The translations under genes were made by a program, and so were the position numbers. 64,000 nt of DNA from Thermospira aquatica (GTDB lineage Bacteria; Spirochaetota; Brevinematia; Brevinematales; Thermospiraceae). The DNA is taken from assembly GCF_023525255.1 (NCBI RefSeq), contig NZ_CP073355.1:2356001-2420000 (forward strand), read 5' to 3'. Positions 12,218 through 61,371 of the stretch are shown here, piece by piece (positions within the stretch are counted from its first letter, which is position 1; each line of letters starts with the position of its first letter). The notes under the pieces were generated by a model. It saw only the letters and a program-made list of their open reading frames with translations, had not been told where the DNA came from and did not search any database.

Positions 12218-12619
12218 GCTATTACCTTTTCACAGTGTGGTTGTGGTAAAAACAAGGGATGGAATAAGGTAATACTTTTTACTTTGTTTTTTTTCTAAAA
12301 CTAGTTGAGAAGAAGAAAATGTGGAAAAAGGGATCGGGCATTTGCTCTTACTTTGTTTCAGTAGACGGTGTAGCTATTACCTTGTTGCAGTGGGAGAGAA
12401 CTGCTCTTACCCTGTCGCAGTACCAAAGGGCTTGCTCTTATCCTGTTTCAGTAAGGGTCTATCAATAAAATGACTGTGATAAGGAAAGAGCGGGGATTTT
12501 GGAGTTTTCTTTTTTCTCCAAAAGTATCGTTGAAAGATGGTATTAGAGACTTTGCTCTTAGCCTGTTTCAGTTTTTATGGTGCTTGTGAACGGCTTTTTC
12601 ACTGCAACAAGGGAAGAGC
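12218..12619. repeat. 19-bp repeat cluster, downstream flank of IS1595-like copy 1
   Basis: Degenerate copies of GCTMTTMCCTTGTTGCAGT. Six forward copies start at 12218, 12344, 12373, 12403, 12434 and 12554, and two reverse copies at 12473 and 12601. Spacing is irregular, about 10 to 110 bp, and the spacers are unrelated. Between 12491 and 12530 lies a hairpin (TTTTGGAG/CTCCAAAA) that is conserved at the other IS1595-like locus. No Cas gene and no regular spacer length are present, so this is not a CRISPR array. Confidence 0.85.
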
Positions 12620-12787
12620 ATGGGGTTTTTATCCCTTTTTCCACTTCTTTTTTGTAAGAAAAAACGCTTTTTTGCCTTTTTCGTAGAGGACAACGAAAAG
12701 TTTTCCAAAAAAACAAAATGAAACAAAAACTTTTAGTTTTCTATTTGACAGACGCAGGAAATGTGTTGAGAAAGAAAAAACGAAAAC
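12620..12787 (-). other. Conserved 3' flank of IS1595-like copy 1
   Basis: Non-coding stretch directly after the ORF that is almost identical to 60839-61005 behind copy 2, including long A/T runs and a CTGTCAAATAG block. Conservation outside the ORF marks it as part of the same mobile or duplicated unit. No terminator with a clear stem-loop was recognised. Confidence 0.6.
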
Positions 12788-13588
12788 CTACGCCCAGATG
12801 GGAAGAATAAGCGGCTCAGCCACCAGCTTTTTCCACGGGAGAAGCTGGCGACGTTTGCCAAGCCTTCTTAAAAGCTCTTCAAGCCTTGTGGCAGCATCTT
12901 CTATATTAAACCGAAAACAAAACTCATCAAGATAGCGCTGCATGTGCTTTCGACAACCATAGTGATAGACGTCTTCAAGAAGGTTTTTCAACCCATCGTT
13001 AATATGGGAAAGCCACGGCATTCTTTTTTCTACGGGCGTGTGGCGGAAAAACTTGCCAAAAAAGTCTGAAAGCCAATCACTATTCACATCATCCACAAGG
13101 TGAATATGAAGTTTAGAAGGGGTATCATCCGCATCAATTTCGACAACCTGCATGGGAGAAAAGTTTTTTCTCTGGCGGCGTTTGATGCCAGAAAGAAAGA
13201 AAAAGGTTTTTACAAGCTTTCGAAGGGATTTGGTGTGATGGCGAGTGGTAAGCCGCATGAGGCTTCGTAGCTTCTGAAGAAGAAGCCAGCTTGCCTTGTA
13301 GCTAATATGAAGAAGTTGTGAAAGCCTCACCGCGTTTATGCCACCATCCTGGCAGACAAGAAACATGGCAGAAAGCCAGATTTTTGGCGAAAGGTGACTT
13401 TTTCGCATGATGGACTGGCTTTTTAAGGAAAATTGTCTGCCACACTTGGGGCACTGATACACGAGCCGGCACGAGAGAAGATGCGCTTTTTCTTTACACC
13501 TTGGGCAAATAGGTCCCTCTGGCCAGAGGGCTTTTTCGAGGATCTGGTAGGCCCCGTTTTCTGAGAGTGTGAAAAAATCCTTTTCCAT
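12788..13588 (-). CDS. IS1595-like (ISXO2-type) transposase-derived protein, copy 1
   Basis: 266 residues, intact, ATG 13588 behind AAGGAG. The N-terminus is a zinc ribbon with Cys28-x2-Cys31 and Cys46-x2-Cys49 (CPRC, CPKC), then a helical DNA-binding region (SPKIWLSAMFLVCQDGGINAVRLSQLLHIS). The C-terminus has the IS1595 signature RKHMQRYLDEFCFRFN at 213-228. A first catalytic Asp is likely Asp152 (VVEIDADD), but only about 65 residues separate it from the C-terminal motif, far fewer than in usual IS1595 enzymes, so the middle of the DDE domain with the second Asp seems missing. About 92% identical to copy 2 at 60038-60838. Possibly a domesticated DNA-binding protein. Confidence 0.75.
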   Translation of the reverse strand: MEKDFFTLSENGAYQILEKALWPEGPICPRCKEKAHLLSCRLVYQCPKCGRQFSLKSQSIMRKSHLSPKIWLSAMFLVCQDGGINAVRLSQLLHISYKASWLLLQKLRSLMRLTTRHHTKSLRKLVKTFFFLSGIKRRQRKNFSPMQVVEIDADDTPSKLHIHLVDDVNSDWLSDFFGKFFRHTPVEKRMPWLSHINDGLKNLLEDVYHYGCRKHMQRYLDEFCFRFNIEDAATRLEELLRRLGKRRQLLPWKKLVAEPLILPIWA

Positions 13589-13717
13589 GGTTTTCTCCTT
13601 AGAGAAATTTTTTCATACTATATATATCGAAAATTTTTTGTTATAGTTGTTAAAAAAGATGTTTTATATATTTTAAAAGTAAGATCGATGGGGAGATTTT
13701 GGGGGTGTGAGAAAAAT

Positions 13718-14250
13718 GCTCTTACCTTGTTGCAGTGTGTGGGACAAGAGATTTCCTAAGGTCGGGTAAGAGAAAGTTTTTTCTTTACTACAACATGGTA
13801 AGAGCAAATCTCAAAGCACGTGAGAGCGTGAGAGGGGATATAAAGGTTAAACGTTTAACCTGGAATTTTCGACGTAAGCTCTTACCTTTTTGCAGTGTTA
13901 TTGCGAGGTTTATCACTGTGAAAAAGGAATAGCTGGAATTTTTCCCACTGTGACAAGGTAACGGCAAGAGTTTTTTCCTGCAACAAGGAAACAGCCTTCA
14001 GGTCCCACACATTTACTGCAAAATGGTAATAGCTAGCGTTTTTTGTACTGCAACAAGGGAAGAGTAAAGGCTTTTTCCCTACTGTGATAAAGTAACAGCT
14101 TTTATTTTTTCACTCTTATTGCAACAAGAAAGAGCATGGCAGTCTTTTTAACTGCGATAAGGGAATAGCCATCACACTGGTGGTTTTTAACTGCAACAGG
14201 GTAAAAGCTGGTGAGCTTTCTTTTGCTTTCCACTGTAACAAGGGAAGAGC
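13718..14250. repeat. 19-bp repeat cluster, upstream flank of IS1595-like copy 1
   Basis: Thirteen copies of the GCTMTTMCCTTGTTGCAGT family. Eleven are in reverse orientation (13787, 13915, 13947, 13977, 14015, 14047, 14081, 14117, 14151, 14190, 14232) and two forward (13718, 13878). Read along the IS1595-like gene, nearly all point towards it, the same arrangement as upstream of copy 2. Spacers run from about 10 to 70 bp. Confidence 0.85.
13844..13861. promoter_or_regulatory. 18-bp perfect palindrome inside the repeat cluster
   Basis: AGGTTAAACGTTTAACCT is a perfect inverted repeat. Shorter versions (TTAAACGTTTAA or GTGAAACGTTTAAC) occur at 32934, 40518 and 59769 in the other clusters. The central CG with AAA/TTT arms resembles LacI-family operators, but no such regulator is in the window. 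It may be a protein site belonging to the element. Confidence 0.6.
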
Positions 14251-14589: not shown

Positions 14590-15823
14590 TCAAAAATTCC
14601 ATACAGTTTCCTCCAAATTTTTGTTTTTTACATTCTTTTTCTTTTGAAGGCTGAAAAGTTTTCTGGCAAGCCGTAATTTTTGTCTTAGGTGAAACAAATC
14701 GAGAGCCTTATAAAGCCTTGTTAGGCGTTCCTTTTGTGCCTCACTTACATAAGAGCTTTCTAAAAGCCGTTGGTAGGGAGTTTTAATATCATCATGCTTC
14801 TTTTGCACCTTGCTTCCGATTCTCTTTTTCTCTGTCATTTTCATAACCGGTTGAAAAAAGTTGGCATAAAGCCTGAGATACGCATAGAGTCGGTTCAAGT
14901 AGTAGACTTCTTCCTCGGTATCGTAGCGGAAGTATCCAACATTCTGGCGGACTATGGAATAGTTTTTCTGCTCAACGTAGCAGTTATCATTGGAACGGGA
15001 GCTTCTCCCCCTTGTAAATTTTATCTGGTGCTTCTCACACCAATCGCGTAGAGGATGATTAATAAATTCAGCACCGGTATCAGAATCAATTCCCCGTAAA
15101 TCAAAGGAAGTCTTCTTTGGACTTTTCTATGGCTTCTCTTACCCATTTTGAAGCTTTGTTTTTGATTGCCACAAGTTCTGTCCAACCGCTCCAAACATCC
15201 ACCATATTTAATGTTTGAGCAAAATCTCCCCGGCTATTTCCTCCCTCATGGGCAACCAGATCAATCTCCATAAAACCAGGGCAATTTTCATCCCACTCTG
15301 CCCACGTGCGTATAGCTATTTGTTGCTTTAACAACGTTCCAGGTTTTGTGCCTTTTCGTCCTTTTATCTCAAGCTTTTTACGCTCATGTTTCAAAAGTCG
15401 GTCAATACTTGAAGCACTTATATGGCGCAAGTTTTCTATAGCCTGTGGAGAACCGTGGAGATGTCCGTTTGCTAAGAGATTATCTAAAACTTCATTGAGA
15501 ATCGGCTTTAAACGTTTGCCACACATGTAGTTTTCAATTTCCCAGACCTTTTTTAGAAGTTTTAGTTCCTCTTCGCCGAATTTTTTCTTTCTGCCAGGTC
15601 TTTTGCCCTTCTTGGCTATGTCGGCTTTAAGGTAATTTTTCTTGCCTACATAGATGGTTTTTCCGTGCTGCCTCAAGAGCCTGGCGGCATAGTTTCGGTT
15701 TTTTAAACCTGTTATCCTCACAAAGTAATCCAGTATCTCCATTTTTTCCTTTTTGCTGGCTTTTTGATATTGTTTTGCCGTTTCCCTGTAAATAGGTCTC
15801 CTTTCAAACATCGCTAACTCCAC
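14590..15823 (-). pseudogene. Integrase-core (rve) transposase of IS copy A, frameshifted
   Basis: The N-terminal two thirds (15101-15823) read as a helix-turn-helix region and the start of the DDE core (GFMEIDLVAHEGG). A net +1 change near 15105, relative to copy B, ends the frame after EAIEKSKEDFL. The remainder continues in another frame down to 14590, including LYAYLRLYANFFQPV and a C-terminus that is intact here but lost in copy B. The probable intact protein would be about 410 residues with D, D and E catalytic residues. The start is GTG 15823 or the in-frame ATG four codons later. Confidence 0.75.
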
Positions 15824-15918: not shown

Positions 15919-17186
15919 CATTGTGTCAAGAAAATTGTGTCTAGTCATAGGATAACCTCGCTGTGAATATTTTCTTTGGTGTATGAGTGTTGCTCACGAT
16001 AGAGTTGAAAGTAATACTCCCAATTTTTTAACTTTCTTTTTAAGAACTTCTCATTTTGGTATCTTAATAACAGGTAAAGATATTTCTCAGCTGAAGCCTC
16101 GCTTTGACACATTTCCATTGTTTTTAATCTCCTTTTAAGTTCTTTAAAGAGTCTTTCCAGGGCATTGTTTGTATACACCATGCTTCGTATTCCTTCAGGT
16201 AATTCCATGTAAGTGAATATATTCTCTCTTATTGTCAAGAGGTTATTCATTAAGTTGGGATAGATATTTTTCCATTTTTGTATAAATTTCATAAACAATT
16301 GTTCTGCCTCCTGTTTGTCTTTGGCATGAAATACCTCTTTTATTTCAGTGGCAATGATATTTCTGTGTTGAACTCTCACTTTAGCCAGTATGTTTCTCAT
16401 GACATGGACTACACAGGGCTGATACTTTGCGTGGGATATATCTCTGTGATGACGTTTTTCATACCACTTAAGCCATCAGAGACAATAAAATGAATCTGTT
16501 TGACACCTCTTTCTCTTATATCCAGCAAAATTTCCCGCCAGTTATAAGCACTTTCCATGCCTCCTGGCAGGTAGTATCCTAAAATCTCCCGTCTTCCCTC
16601 AGGTGTAATGCCTATAGCTACATATATTGATTCATTTTCTACCCTATCTCTTGATAGGAAACACCATAGCATCCAGAAATACCACGGCATATTCTTCCAT
16701 GAGAGGGCGACTACGCCACTTCTGAATCTCTTCTATGCCTACCTGGCTTATCCTTGAGATGTTAGCATAAGAAATCTTTATTTCATAAAGCTCTTTAAAA
16801 CTTCTGCTATCTTCCTTGTTGACATTCCTGATATCAACATAGCCCTGATTAATGCATCTAAGTCTTCTGTGATGCGTTTGCGATAGGGAAGAAGGGCACT
16901 TTTAAATCCATTATCCCTTGTTCTTGGAACACGTATGGCTGTAAGCTCGCCAAAAGCTGTCTTTAAATCCCTTTCGTAAAAGCCATTGCCTTTTGTGGGT
17001 GGATTGTTTTCCAGGTAAATCTCTCTTTCCTCTTTTAACATACTCTCTAATACTTCCTTGACAATTGGTTTGAATAGCTCTAAAATATTCTTCGTCTCAA
17101 TCATATCTGGCCTCCTGTGATAGTTTTATTTATATTATCACAGGAGGTTATCTTTTTCCTACCAGACACAATTAAGTATACACTGC
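15919..17186 (-). mobile_element. IS256-family element, copy A, nested
   Basis: 1268 bp bounded by a 9-bp direct repeat CTTTTATTA (15910-15918 and 17187-17195), a typical IS256-family target duplication. The ends share an imperfect inverted repeat including ATTGTGTCTAG/ATTGTGTCTGG. The insertion splits the left end of the surrounding integrase-type IS. The transposase is broken in three places. Confidence 0.8.
15945..17104 (-). pseudogene. IS256 (Mutator) family transposase, multiply frameshifted
   Basis: Starts at 17104 with MIETKNILELFKPIVKEVLE and the family block ENNPPTKGNGFYERDLKT. The frame breaks near 16782 (one A missing in a run compared with copy B), again near 16650 (two bases missing after FPIK), and near 16425 just before the conserved MRNILAKV segment. 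The last part (15945-16400) holds GIRSMVYTNNALERLFKELKRRLK, the region with the final catalytic glutamate of Mutator transposases. No functional enzyme can be made. Confidence 0.85.
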
Positions 17187-32722: not shown

Positions 32723-33233
32723 GCTCTTACCCTGTTGCAGCTGCCTCTCTCATAGGTGCTATTACCTTTTTGCAGTGAGCGTGAAAAAACAAAAGCTATT
32801 CCCTTATCGCAGTAATAAAAACCCTTGCTCTTCCCTTGTTACAGTGGAAAAAATTCCAAGCTATGACTTTTTCACAGTGTTAAACCATCCGATAACACTG
32901 TGAAAGGGTAAGAGCTTACGTGGAGAATTTCCGGTGAAACGTTTAACTCATATATCTCTTTTCACATTCACACGTGCTTTGAGAGTTGCTCTTCCCTGGT
33001 TACTGTTATCTCTTATTCTGAGCTTATTGCAGTTATTCCTCTCAAGGTTATTCTCATTTTACAGTTAGCACAATAGCTCTATAGCTATTCCCTTGTTGCA
33101 GTGGAAAACGGCAAATTTCTAGCTCTTCCCTTGTTACAGTGAAAAAATTTCCCCCACGAGTTTGCCCGTTCTCTCGTACTTCCTCAAAACTGCAACAAGG
33201 TAATAGCATCCCCCACTGCAACAAGGGAAGAGC
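32723..33233. repeat. Stand-alone 19-bp repeat cluster between xpb and sigma gene
   Basis: Eight forward copies (32723, 32758, 32795, 32827, 32860, 32988, 33084, 33122) and three reverse (32897, 33189, 33215) of GCTMTTMCCTTGTTGCAGT. The central part (32845-33006) follows the order and spacers of the cores at 13787-13965 and 59662-59840, including GAATTTCCGG, the GTGAAACGTTTAAC palindrome and a CACGTGCTTTGAGA block. There is no transposase ORF; short frames here translate the repeats and are not genes. Confidence 0.85.
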
Positions 33234-40212: not shown

Positions 40213-40624
40213 GCTGTTAACTTTTCGCAGTTTTGGTCTTTTCCCCTTTTCTATATGCTATTACCTTTTCGCAGCTAGAAAAAGTCTGCCATGCTATTCC
40301 CTTATCACAGCGAAAACAATAGTGCTTTTTGAAGCCGTTACCATGCTTAGAAAAAGCAAGAAATATTTGCTCTTAACCTGGTGCAACAGACCATTACGCT
40401 CAAAAGCTTTTATACTCCCTCTTTAAAATCAAAGAGAGCTGGCTATCACTTTGTCCCTGTGCATTTTCAAGATTTCAAAAGCTAAAAAAAGAGAATAGCG
40501 CACCCTAAACATTTCAGGTTAAACGTTTAACTCAATCGATAGTAATCTGGTCTGACTTTTAAAAACGTGTTATTACCTTATCGCAGCTCAAATTTACGAA
40601 CCCAAACTGCAAAAAGGGAATAGC
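40213..40624. repeat. Degenerate 19-bp repeat cluster with palindrome
   Basis: Five forward copies (40213, 40257, 40293, 40379, 40569) and one reverse (40606), more diverged than in the other clusters. The palindrome GTTAAACGTTTAAC lies at 40518-40531. No ORF in 40071-40693 looks real. It appears to be an old or partly eroded member of the same family, between the cNMP-fold gene and the end of the V-ATPase operon. Confidence 0.7.
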
Positions 40625-53397: not shown

Positions 53398-54795
53398 CGA
53401 ATTGCTTCATAATAAAAGTACTCGAAAAGGGAACGTTGCTTCAAAATAAAAAAGTACTTTAAATTTGTGTAAAATAATCCAGTTCAAAGAACTGGAGGTA
53501 CAAGGTGGAGTTAGCGATGTTTGAAAGGAGACCTATTTACAGGGAAACGGCGAAAGAGTATCAAAAAGCCAGCAAAAAGGAAAAAATGGAGATACTGGAT
53601 TATTTTGTGAGGATAACAGGCCTAAAAAATCGAAACTATGCCGCCAGGCTCTTGAGGCAGCACGGAAAAACCATCTATGTAGGCAAGAAAAATTACCTTA
53701 AAGCCGACATAGCCAAGAAGGGCAAAAGACCTGGCAGAAAGAAAAAATTCGGCGAAGAGGAACTAAAACTTCTAAAAAGGTCTGGGAAATTGAAAAACAT
53801 GTGTGGCAAACGTTTAAAGCCAATTTTAAATGAAGTTTTAGATAATCTCTTAGCAAACGGACATCTCCACGGTTCTCCACAGGCTATAGAACACTTGCGC
53901 CATATAAGTGCCTCAAGTATTGACCGACTTTTGAAACATGAGCGTAAAAAGCTTGAGATAAAAGGACGAAAAGGTACAAAGCCTGGAACGCTATTAAAGC
54001 AACAAATAGCTATACGCACGTGGGCAGAGTGGGATGAAAATTGCCCTGGTTTTATGGAGATTGATCTGGTTGCCCATGAGGGAGGAAATAGCCGGGGAGA
54101 TTTTGCTCAAACATTAAATATGGTGGATGTTTGGAGCGGTTGGACAGAACTTGTGGCAATCAAAAACAAAGCTTCAAAATGGGTAAGAGAAGCCATAGAA
54201 AAAGTCAAAAGACTTCCTTTTGATTTACGGGGAATTGATTCTGATACCGGTGCTGAATTTATTAATCATCCTCTGCGTGATTGGTGTGAGAAGAACCAGA
54301 TAAAATTTACAAGGGGGAGAAGCTCCCGTTCCAATGATAACTGCTACGTTGAGCAGAAAAACTATTCCATAGTCCGCCAGAATGTTGGATACTTCCGCTA
54401 CGATACCGAGGAAGAAGTCTACTACTTGAACCAACTCTATGCCTATCTTCGACTGTATACCAACTTTTTTCAACCGGTTATGAAAATGACAGAGAAAAAG
54501 AGAATCGGAAGCAAGGTGCAAAAGAAGCATGATGATATTAAAACTCCCTACCAGCGGCTTTTAGAAAGCTCTTATGTAAGTGAGGCACAAAAGGAGCCTA
54601 ACAAGGCTTTATAAGGCTCTCGATTTGTTTCACCTAAGACAAAAAATTACGGCTTGCCAGAGAAAACTTTTCAGCCTTCAAAAGAAAAAGAATGTAAAAA
54701 ACAAAAATTTGGAGGAAACTGTATGGAATTTTTGAGTACTTTTTTTTATGAGGCAATGATTCGAATTTCGAGTACTTTTTTATTTGACGCAACGG
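53398..54795 (+). mobile_element. Integrase-type IS, copy B
   Basis: About 1.4 kb, same ends as copy A (CGAATTGCTTCATAATAAAAG at 53398 and TTGACGCAACGGG near 54795). The right end directly joins a 5'-truncated IS256 copy, so this element either inserted into it or a deletion joined the two. I see no matching target duplication, which supports later rearrangement. Confidence 0.75.
53505..54614 (+). pseudogene. Integrase-core (rve) transposase of IS copy B, C-terminus lost
   Basis: 369 residues in one frame, with DDE residues visible: GFMEIDLVAHEGG, LRGIDSDTGAEFINHPL and SNDNCYVEQKNYS. An N-terminal helix-turn-helix region precedes them. Compared with copy A, two compensating small deletions alter the segment LKRSGKLKNMCG, and a 2-bp deletion near 54595 cuts off the last ~45 residues (ends EPNKAL). 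The family is IS481/IS3-like integrase transposases; I cannot name a subgroup. Probably inactive. Confidence 0.75.
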
Positions 54796-55923
54796 GAAGT
54801 ATTAGAGTATGTTAAAAGAGGAAGAGATTTACCTGGAAAACAATCCTCCCACAAAAGGCAATGGCTTTTACGAAAGGGATTTAAAGACAGCTTTTGGCGA
54901 GCTTACAGCCATACGTGTTCCAAGAACAAGGGATAATGGATTTAAAAGTGCCCTTCTTCCCTATCGCAAGCGCATCACAGAAGACTTAGATGCATTAATC
55001 AGGGCTATGTTGATATCAGGAATGTCAACAAGGAAGCAGAAGTTTTAAAAGAGCTTTATGAAATAAAGATTTCTTATGCTAACATCTCAAGGATAAGCCA
55101 GGTAGGCATAGAAGAGATTCAGAAGTGGCGTAGTCGCCCTCTCATGGAAGAATATGCCGTGGTATTTCTGGATGCTATGGTGTTTCCTATCAAGAGAGAC
55201 AGGGTAGAAAATGAATCAATATATGTAGCTATAGGCATTACACCTGAGGGAAGACGGAGATTTTAGGATACTACCTGCCAGGAGGCATGGAAAGTGCTTA
55301 TAACTGGCGGGAAATTTTGCTTAGATATAAGAGAAAGAGGTGTCAAACAGATTCATTTTATTGTCTCTGATGGCTTAAGTGGTATGAAAACGTCATAACA
55401 GAAATATATCCCCAAAGTATCAGCCCTGTGTAGTCCATGTCATGAGAAACATACTGGCTAAAGTGAGAGTTCAACACAGAAATATCATTGCCACTGAAAT
55501 AAAAGAGGTATTTCATGCCAAAGACAAACAGGAGGCAGAACAATTGTTTATGAAATTTACACAAAAATGGAAAAATATCTATCCCAACTTAATGAATAAC
55601 CTCTTGACAATAAGAGAGAATATATTCACTTACATGGAATTACCTGAAGGAATACGAAGCATGGTGTATACAAACAATGCCCTGGAAAGACTCTTTAAAG
55701 AACTTAAAAGGAGATTAAAAACAATGGAAATGTGTCAAAGCGAGGCTTCAGCTGAGAAATATCTTTACCTGTTATTAAGATACCAAAATGAGAAGTTCTT
55801 AAAAAGAAAGTTAAAAAATTGGGAGTATTACTTTCAACTCTATCGTGAGCAACACTCATACACCAAAGAAAATATTCACAGCGAGGTTATCCTATGACTA
55901 GACACAATTTTCTTGACACAATG
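54796..55923 (+). mobile_element. IS256-family element, copy B, 5'-truncated
   Basis: Matches IS256 copy A from about codon 16 of the transposase to the right terminal end (ATTTTCTTGACACAATG at 55923). The start of the gene and the left end are missing where the integrase-type IS joins. Confidence 0.75.
54809..55897 (+). pseudogene. IS256-family transposase remnant
   Basis: Fragments of the Mutator-type transposase: ENNPPTKGNGFYERDLKT near the start, then frameshifts at about 55035, 55255 and 55390, and a last open part (55442-55897) with MVYTNNALERLFKELKRRLK. Homologous to the copy at 15945-17104 but broken at partly different places. Confidence 0.8.
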
Positions 55924-59423: not shown

Positions 59424-59909
59424 GCTATGACGATGTTGCAGTGGTGTGTTGGGAAGGTGTATTGCTCTTACCATGTTGCAGTGTGTCTGTTATGGGAGCT
59501 ATTACCTTGTTGCAGTGGGAAGAGGGAGCTATAGCTATTACCTTGTCGCAGTGTCCCTCCCATGTAGGCTATTACCTTGTTGCAGTCTAGAAACCGTGCT
59601 AGCTCTTACCATATCACAGTAAGGATCCTAAGCTATTCCCTTGTTGCAGGAAAAAACTCTTGCCGTTACCTTGTCACAGTGGGAAAAATTCCAGCTATTA
59701 CTTTTTCACAGTGGTAAACCTCGCGATAATACTGCAAAAAGGGAAGAGCTTATGTCGAAAACTCCAGCTTAAACGTTTAATCTTTATATGCCCTCTTACA
59801 ATCTCACTTACTTTGAGATTTGCTCTTACCATGTTGCAGTAAAGAAAAAACTTTCTCTTACCCGACCTTAGGAAATCTCTTGTCCCACACACTGCAACAA
59901 GGTAAGAGC
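59424..59909. repeat. 19-bp repeat cluster, upstream flank of IS1595-like copy 2
   Basis: Ten forward copies (59424, 59464, 59498, 59534, 59568, 59602, 59632, 59662, 59694, 59822) and two reverse (59731, 59891) of GCTMTTMCCTTGTTGCAGT. The forward copies point towards the ORF. The part 59632-59909 is nearly the reverse complement of 13718-13995, including the palindrome TTAAACGTTTAA at 59769-59780. Confidence 0.87.
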
Positions 59910-60037
59910 ATTTTTCTCTCAACTAATAACTTTTCTTACAATCTCCTTTTTTAAAAAAACAAAACATTTTTCTTGACAAATATAACTAAAAATTTTCGAT
60001 ATATATAGTATGAAAAAATTCCTCTAAGGAGAAAACC

Positions 60038-60838
60038 ATGGAAAAGGATTTTTTCACACTCTCAGAAAAAGAATCTTACCAGATTCTCGAAAAAACCCTC
60101 TGGCCAGAGGGACCTATTTGCCCACGGTGTAAGGCAAAGGCGCATCTTCTCTCGTGCCGGCTCGTGTATCAGTGCCCCAAGTGTGGCAGACAATTTTCCT
60201 TAAAAAGCCAGTCCATCATGCGAAAAAGTCACCTTTCGCCAAAAATCTGGCTTTCTGCCATGTTTCTTGTCTGCCAGGATGGTGGCATAAACGCCGTCAA
60301 ACTCTCGAAACTTCTTCATATCAGCTACAAGGCAAGCTGGCTTCTTCTTCAAAAACTGCGAAGCCTTATGCGGCTTACCACTCGCCATCACACGAAATCC
60401 CTCCGAAAGCTTGTCAAAACCTTTTTCTTTCTCTCCGGCATCAAACGCCGCCAAAGAAAAAACTTTTCCCCCATGCAGGTTGTCGAAATTGATGCGGATG
60501 ATACCCCTTCTAAACTTCACATCCATCTTGTAGATGATGTAAGTCATCACTGGATTTCAGACTTTTTTGGCAAGCTTTTCCGCCACACCTCGGTGGAAAA
60601 AAGAACACCCTGGCTTTCCCACCTTAACGATGGGTTGAAAAACCTTCTTGAAGACGTCTATCACTATGGTTGTCGAAAGCACATGCAGCGCTATCTTGAT
60701 GAGTTTTGCTTTCGGTTTAACATCGAGGGGGTTTCTTCCAGGCTTGAGGAGCTTTTAAGAAGGCTTGGCAAACGTCGCCAGCTTCTCCCGTGGAAAAAAC
60801 TCGTCACCGAGCCGCTTATTCTTCCCATCTGGGCGTAG
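60038..60838 (+). CDS. IS1595-like (ISXO2-type) transposase-derived protein, copy 2
   Basis: 266 residues, intact, ATG 60038 behind AAGGAG. Domain layout as in copy 1: zinc ribbon with CPRC and CPKC, helical DNA-binding region, Asp152 in VVEIDADD, a short remaining middle part, and RKHMQRYLDEFCFRFN. About 20 substitutions separate the copies, clustered around residues 11-13, 169-172 and 231-235, while the zinc ribbon and C-terminal motif are nearly unchanged. No stop or frameshift has accumulated, unlike every other transposase here. Either recent movement or selection could explain this. Confidence 0.75.
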   Translation: MEKDFFTLSEKESYQILEKTLWPEGPICPRCKAKAHLLSCRLVYQCPKCGRQFSLKSQSIMRKSHLSPKIWLSAMFLVCQDGGINAVKLSKLLHISYKASWLLLQKLRSLMRLTTRHHTKSLRKLVKTFFFLSGIKRRQRKNFSPMQVVEIDADDTPSKLHIHLVDDVSHHWISDFFGKLFRHTSVEKRTPWLSHLNDGLKNLLEDVYHYGCRKHMQRYLDEFCFRFNIEGVSSRLEELLRRLGKRRQLLPWKKLVTEPLILPIWA

Positions 60839-61005
60839 GTTTTCGTTTTTTCTTTCTCAACACATTTCCTGCGTCTGTCAAATAGAAAACTAAAAGTTTT
60901 TGTTTCCTTTTGTTTTTTTGGAAAACTTTTCGTTGTCCTCTACGAAAAAGGCAAAAAAGTGTTTTTCTTAAAAAAAAGAAGTGGAAAAAGGGATAAAAAA
61001 CCTCT

Positions 61006-61371
61006 GCTCTTTCCTTGTTGCAGTGAAAAAAACGTTCTTGCTATTCCTTTTTCACAGTTTTTCCTCTGATCCAAGACTGTAAAAGAGTAATAGCATCTTT
61101 TTTCTCAGGTGAAACCTTTCACCAATTTCCTCTTCGTGTTTTTTTTTGAGAGTAGCTATTACCTTTTCACAGTCTCCAGAATTATAAAAACTGAAACAAG
61201 GTAAGAGCAGCGTCTATACTACCATCCCCCGACGATACTTTTGGAGAAAAAAGAAAACTCCAAAATCCCCGCTCTTTCCTTATCACAGTCACCTTATTGG
61301 AAAATCTCACTGCAACAAAGTAATAGCTGTCCCCCAAATCCCCTTGTCCCCCACTGCAACAAGGAAAGAGC
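61006..61371. repeat. 19-bp repeat cluster, downstream flank of IS1595-like copy 2
   Basis: Four forward copies (61006, 61040, 61155, 61271) and four reverse (61076, 61190, 61309, 61353). The hairpin TTTTGGAG/CTCCAAAA at 61239-61265 and the adjoining repeat at 61271 are shared with copy 1 (12473-12523), but several units in between differ, so whole repeat-spacer units have been gained or lost. Confidence 0.85.

Follow-up and report, generated by a model that had tools for sequence, protein, structure and literature searches.

The 64,000-nucleotide stretch of the Thermospira aquatica contig NZ_CP073355.1 analysed here (hereafter the window) belongs to G000, a complete genome of 2,515,453 bp, and carries two copies of an IS1595-like gene, W60 and W12, on opposite strands, each flanked by arrays of short repeats (Table 1). 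An initial annotation had described two inverted, frameshift-free 266-aa copies of about 92% identity, and both ORFs were recovered without internal stops, their proteins 92% identical. Both loci are real, but they represent only two of the 16 gene copies in the genome, 13 of them intact and three broken.

Table 1. Coordinates of the gene copies, bounded units, repeat arrays and upstream stretch within the window.
Feature	Position	Strand	Remarks
W60, DDE-lost IS1595-like protein, 266 aa	60038..60838	+	zinc ribbon 9-52, HTH-like ~67-119, RNase H-fold remnant 127-228
Unit of W60, 1,134 bp	59891..61024	+	21-bp ends ACTGCAACAAGGKAAGAGCAT, no target-site duplication
Conserved upstream stretch, TTGACA + TTTTCGAT	59973..60000	+	homologues examined, three genomes
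Upstream array of W60	59424..59909		12 repeats of GCTMTTNCCTTGTTGCAGT
Downstream array of W60	61006..61371		8 repeats
W12, second copy in the window	12788..13588	-	intact, 92% identical to W60
Unit of W12, 1,136 bp	12601..13736	-	inverted-repeat-bounded
Upstream array of W12	13718..14250		12 repeats
Downstream array of W12	12218..12619		8 repeats
Array without gene	32723..33233		12 repeats; part-homologous to left arrays of gene-bearing loci
Array without gene	40213..40624		5-7 repeats

Inverted-repeat-bounded units and repeat arrays

Across the genome, the gene occupies a unit of 1,125–1,150 bp whose ends are 21-bp inverted repeats. A minus-strand repeat lies 128–130 bp 5' of the ATG in 15 of the 16 copies, and a plus-strand repeat lies 158–182 bp 3' of the stop codon in all of them. 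At the sixteenth locus, L076 (G000:C1:1554890-1567687), another IS with a transposase-like ORF of ~459 aa is inserted in the left bounding repeat. Terminal inverted repeats of the ACTGCAACAAGGKAAGAGCAT type were found on 15 units, and target-site duplications were absent from all 15 units checked. Of 109 pairwise comparisons between copies, 50 lose homology no more than 6 bp from the left tip and 31 no more than 6 bp from the right tip. Left and right contexts occur in varied combinations among units, as expected from recombination at the repeats. Loci L074 and L084 have in common a 5.4-kb stretch around the gene (97.8%), a segmental duplication in which one gene copy is intact and the other frameshifted. 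Upstream of all Brevinematales homologues read, in G000 and in G001 and G002 (congeners of G000 by kinship), a TTTTCGAT motif is conserved, usually near TTGACA, and may represent a promoter or operator.

The repeat itself, ~19 bp in length (GCTMTTNCCTTGTTGCAGT), yielded 461 matches in a genome pattern search allowing at most two mismatches, against none for a reversed-pattern control, and 528 repeats were counted in the retrieved genome stretches, in arrays of up to 28. Repeats are degenerate, occur on both strands and form CRISPR-like arrays and inverted pairs, with spacers of variable length, mostly 5–23 bp. Within the window, all 43 matches at three or fewer mismatches fall inside arrays and none outside, a distribution that does not arise by chance. 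Adjacent repeats on opposite strands are arranged tail-to-tail far more often than head-to-head (76 versus 5), so the inverted pair is taken as a basic unit. Arrays at separate loci have runs of spacers in common and differ by whole repeat–spacer units. One array without a gene, L088 (G000:C1:114000-122000), resembles a left and a right array fused, and is possibly an empty or deleted form of a gene-bearing locus.

The remaining transposases of the window, which the initial annotation had called broken, indeed look so, comprising two truncated Transposase_mut fragments and two frameshifted rve-type copies. These lie side by side at both places where they occur (rve-type, 53505-54614 and 14728-15823; Transposase_mut, 15945-16400 and 55442-55897). 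The fragments measure 151 aa each and are 99% identical to each other; one rve-type copy is frameshifted internally and the other near its C-terminus. In both families the ends are unlike the repeat.

Domains, fold and loss of the catalytic triad

Both window copies retain the zinc ribbon, as had been proposed (Pfam Zn_ribbon_IS1595, 3e-9 and 3e-10, above cut-off). The C-terminal motif is likewise kept as a RKHMQRYLDEFCFRFN block, and the DDE_Tnp_IS1595 match is limited to this C-terminal end (profile 111–153 of 153, below cut-off). The NCBIfam IS1595 transposase model scores 63 and 62 bits, under its cut-off of 75.

Profile–profile alignment with hhalign of seven Brevinematales proteins against eleven catalytically intact IS1595 proteins gave a probability of 99.9 (E 5e-37). 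In the nearest intact relatives, D129, D196 and the third-site H229 (L050 numbering) are all invariant; in the Brevinematales proteins all three of these active-site residues (D, D, H) are absent. According to the profile alignment and the structural model, D1 aligns to strand 127–132 (KTFFFL), where no Asp is left. A gap takes the place of the D2 stretch. S194 stands opposite H229, the third site being S, F or Y here and invariably H in the intact set.

From ~65 residues between the first Asp and the C-terminal motif, the initial annotation had concluded that the second catalytic Asp region appeared to be deleted. D152 and the RKHMQRYLDEFCFRFN block are 61 residues apart. A central deletion does exist, but the loss is wider, since D1 and the third residue are gone as well. 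Its identification of the first Asp as catalytic does not hold: in the model, D152 closes the strand that follows (144–151), and some relatives have N, T or G in its place. The comparison with IS1595 transposases that it had proposed finds the DDE residues missing. The Brevinematales clade has no invariant Asp; E150, H163, H209, H215 and E222 are invariant, which leaves room for unusual chemistry.

In the AlphaFold model (pLDDT 71, pTM 0.73), the strands and helices of an RNase H-type fold are preserved, with no strand at residues 166–190; pLDDT falls below 50 at 117–130 and 136–140, and few close sequences stand behind the model. The top VIA-align match was the ISCth4 transposase, with a Z of 8.3 over 149 residues that is near the level its own notes call common, followed by Hermes and retroviral integrases; Foldseek against the PDB returned no match at E ≤ 0.001. 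Because the Z score is near the common level, the fold assignment rests on VIA-align together with sequence homology.

Selection on the protein and divergence of gene and repeat

The 78 pairs formed by the 13 intact copies give a median dN/dS of 0.11 and a mean dS of 0.25; as copies recombine, the pairs are not independent samples. This median, well below 1, supports the selection for which the initial annotation had proposed a test across genomic copies, 13 of which are open and 3 broken. Between W60 and W12, 22 of 68 differences are nonsynonymous (P 6e-16 under neutrality), and changes private to a single copy give a dN/dS of 0.15. By region, the block at residues 190–230 is lowest (0.03) and the tail beyond 230 highest (0.41). 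Purifying selection on the protein is strong, as would also be expected for an element that is still moving.

In G002, ~54-bp hairpins of GCTATTNCCTTGTTTCAGC enclose the homologues (41–45% identity), and 274 matches to the GCTATTNCCTTGTTKCAG / GCTATTNCCTTGTTTCAGC repeat occur genome-wide, many in hairpins of this length. The subfamily A homologue of G001 has its own divergent repeat variant in bounding hairpins, and the subfamily B homologue of that genome, L027, is bounded by TGTTCTCTCCTTTTCTCA pairs ~87 bp long. TGTTCTCTCCTTTTCTCA matches number 26 in G001, 10 in G002, which contains a partial L027-like gene (L031), and one in G000; 19 of the 26 in G001 lie on the contig of the subfamily B gene (L134 / G001:C29; P 5e-18). 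At the sequence level, gene and repeat change together, and a cognate repeat accompanies the gene in each of three genomes and in both subfamilies. The triad loss is older than the split of these genomes and subfamilies. The site equivalent to W60 carries one solo hairpin in G002 and none in G001, and no target-site duplication was evident on inspection of 18 G002 hairpins and six G001 units.

Candidates for another enzyme acting on the repeats were sought in the same genomes. The Y1 (RAYT) profile PF01797 gave no match in G000, G001, G002 or G007 and was positive in five control genomes. No PF12762 match in these genomes begins before profile position 99, so that neither a full-length DDE domain nor a DDE-intact IS1595 gene was found, in G000 or in the others. 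Around intact IS1595 relatives, inverted ends were detected at a few loci (L042, L043, L044, L046 and L056), and none resembled the repeat convincingly. Since these ends are unlike the repeat, its origin from IS ends is argued from its position round the gene and not from its sequence.

A putative repeat-binding system and its alternatives

With moderate confidence, we interpret the locus as part of a REPtron-like system, in which a dead DDE-fold protein is paired with cognate repeats that would descend from transposon ends. The gene would derive from an IS1595-family transposase, retaining the DNA-recognition parts (zinc ribbon and helical region) on an RNase H-type scaffold, and selection would persist through recognition of the ~19-bp repeat family. 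Together with its two bounding repeats, the array repeats and the solitary hairpins, the gene would make up a single system, whose resident protein does not cut but most likely binds and bridges its cognate sites, hundreds in number. Copies and arrays could spread and be reshuffled when repeats recombine with one another, or through a nuclease from elsewhere in the cell. Repeat binding, bridging, repeat origin, manner of spread and any host benefit are inferred.

Comparison with known systems places this arrangement close to TnpA-REP/RAYT, which it resembles in working without being a member. Both combine a transposase-derived gene lying between inverted cognate repeats with hundreds of extragenic palindromes (here 461 and 274 in G000 and G002), often as inverted pairs and also beside the gene, and in both the protein and repeat diverge in step. 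The protein here, however, is a dead DDE fold and not an HUH Y1 nuclease, occurs in 16 copies where theirs is usually single copy, and is accompanied by long head-to-tail arrays. In addition, the GTAG that most often precedes the REP palindrome (PMC8266576) is missing from the repeat consensus. With insertion sequences of the zinc-ribbon groups of the IS1595 family, the system has in common the zinc ribbon, the RNase H-type scaffold, the C-terminal YHG...LQxYLDEFCFRFN block and a single gene flanked by inverted repeats, whereas here the triad is gone, the central stretch is deleted and the ends are repeated hundreds of times. Target-site duplications, usually 8 bp in the IS1595 family (PMC8101967, PMC12561309), are found in none of the units. 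MITEs are similar in their short units and in inverted ends in common with a gene-bearing element, and differ in that no target-site duplication is evident here and a competent transposase was not found. The arrays recall CRISPR in their short repeats, short unique spacers and unit-wise gain or loss between arrays, although these repeats are degenerate and in both orientations and the spacers are not uniform. No earlier description of such a system was found in the open-licence literature.

An insertion sequence that is still mobile, moved through an unrecognised active site or by a transposase acting in trans, with arrays representing piled-up ends or mini-elements, is an unlikely alternative. 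It would account for an IS-like unit with 21-bp inverted repeats at 16 loci, for homology that stops at the tips, for a W60 site that is a solo hairpin in G002 and empty in G001, and for the conservation of E150, H163 and E222. Against it stand the missing target-site duplications, in the 15 units as at the G002 and G001 hairpins, the age of the copies implied by their mean dS, the failure to find an intact IS1595 partner, and the dissimilar ends of the other window IS.

Somewhat less probable again is a host-domesticated nucleoid or regulatory protein, for which the repeats would be sites of chromosome organisation or gene control. The initial annotation had proposed a domesticated DNA-binding protein acting on the flanking repeats, and of this proposal the lost catalysis, the selection and a specific tie between protein and flanking repeats are supported. 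The strong selection, the hundreds of extragenic repeats and the conserved TTTTCGAT stretch speak for a host role. A single host gene is not what was found, however: the gene forms a multicopy inverted-repeat-bounded unit of 16 copies, three of them decaying, no conserved locus was found, loci vary between species at the sites checked, and the subfamily B repeats of G001 cluster on the contig of their gene instead of spreading genome-wide. Given the multicopy unit, the species-variable loci and the mosaic arrays, a host function and a selfish or REP-like system are equally likely.

That the copies are relics of a degenerating IS family, their low dN/dS reflecting past activity only, would agree with three broken copies and the lost triad, but is largely refuted and very improbable, because the triad was lost before the three genomes and two subfamilies split, yet 13 copies remain open under constraint that extends to private changes.

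In bacteria, the domesticated transposases known to be associated with REPs are HUH nucleases, and the spread of REPs has yet to be explained. If the preferred reading of a dead DDE-fold protein with cognate repeats is true, such repeats would be able to endure in large numbers, and perhaps to spread, even though their own protein does not cut, and two natural protein–repeat pairs in one genus would allow specificity to be compared directly. More tentatively, and with some doubt, we suggest that REPtron-like systems arose a second time, independently, from dead DDE-fold proteins that maintain and spread their own binding sites without cutting, paralleled in Paenibacillus by a LexA-controlled expansion of dead IS1595-like paralogues beside tandem repeats.

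In phylogenetic trees, the Brevinematales proteins form one clade (support 100) and the large Paenibacillus dead group another (100); a joint clade of the two did not appear in the trees, nor did the AU test reject it (p 0.31). The G007 protein L022 groups with the Brevinematales clade (88/93). Its D1 is missing, its D2 region is shortened and its third site is N, a placement and residue pattern that would fit stepwise loss of the triad. DDE-lost IS1595-like paralogues form a large group in Paenibacillus and Cohnella (L032-L038, L048, L049 and L099-L128). Six Paenibacillus-type genomes were searched and gave 2–12 matches each, with several DDE-intact in G065. Tandem repeats lie near many, though not all, of the Paenibacillus-type dead genes; they are local, without dispersal in the genome, unlike those of G000. 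The existence of this dead clade suggests that the theme is wider than Brevinematales. Of 21 open dead-type genes read, 19 have a LexA-type box (GAACN4GTTC or a near form) upstream, as, in one genome, do all four DDE-intact genes read.
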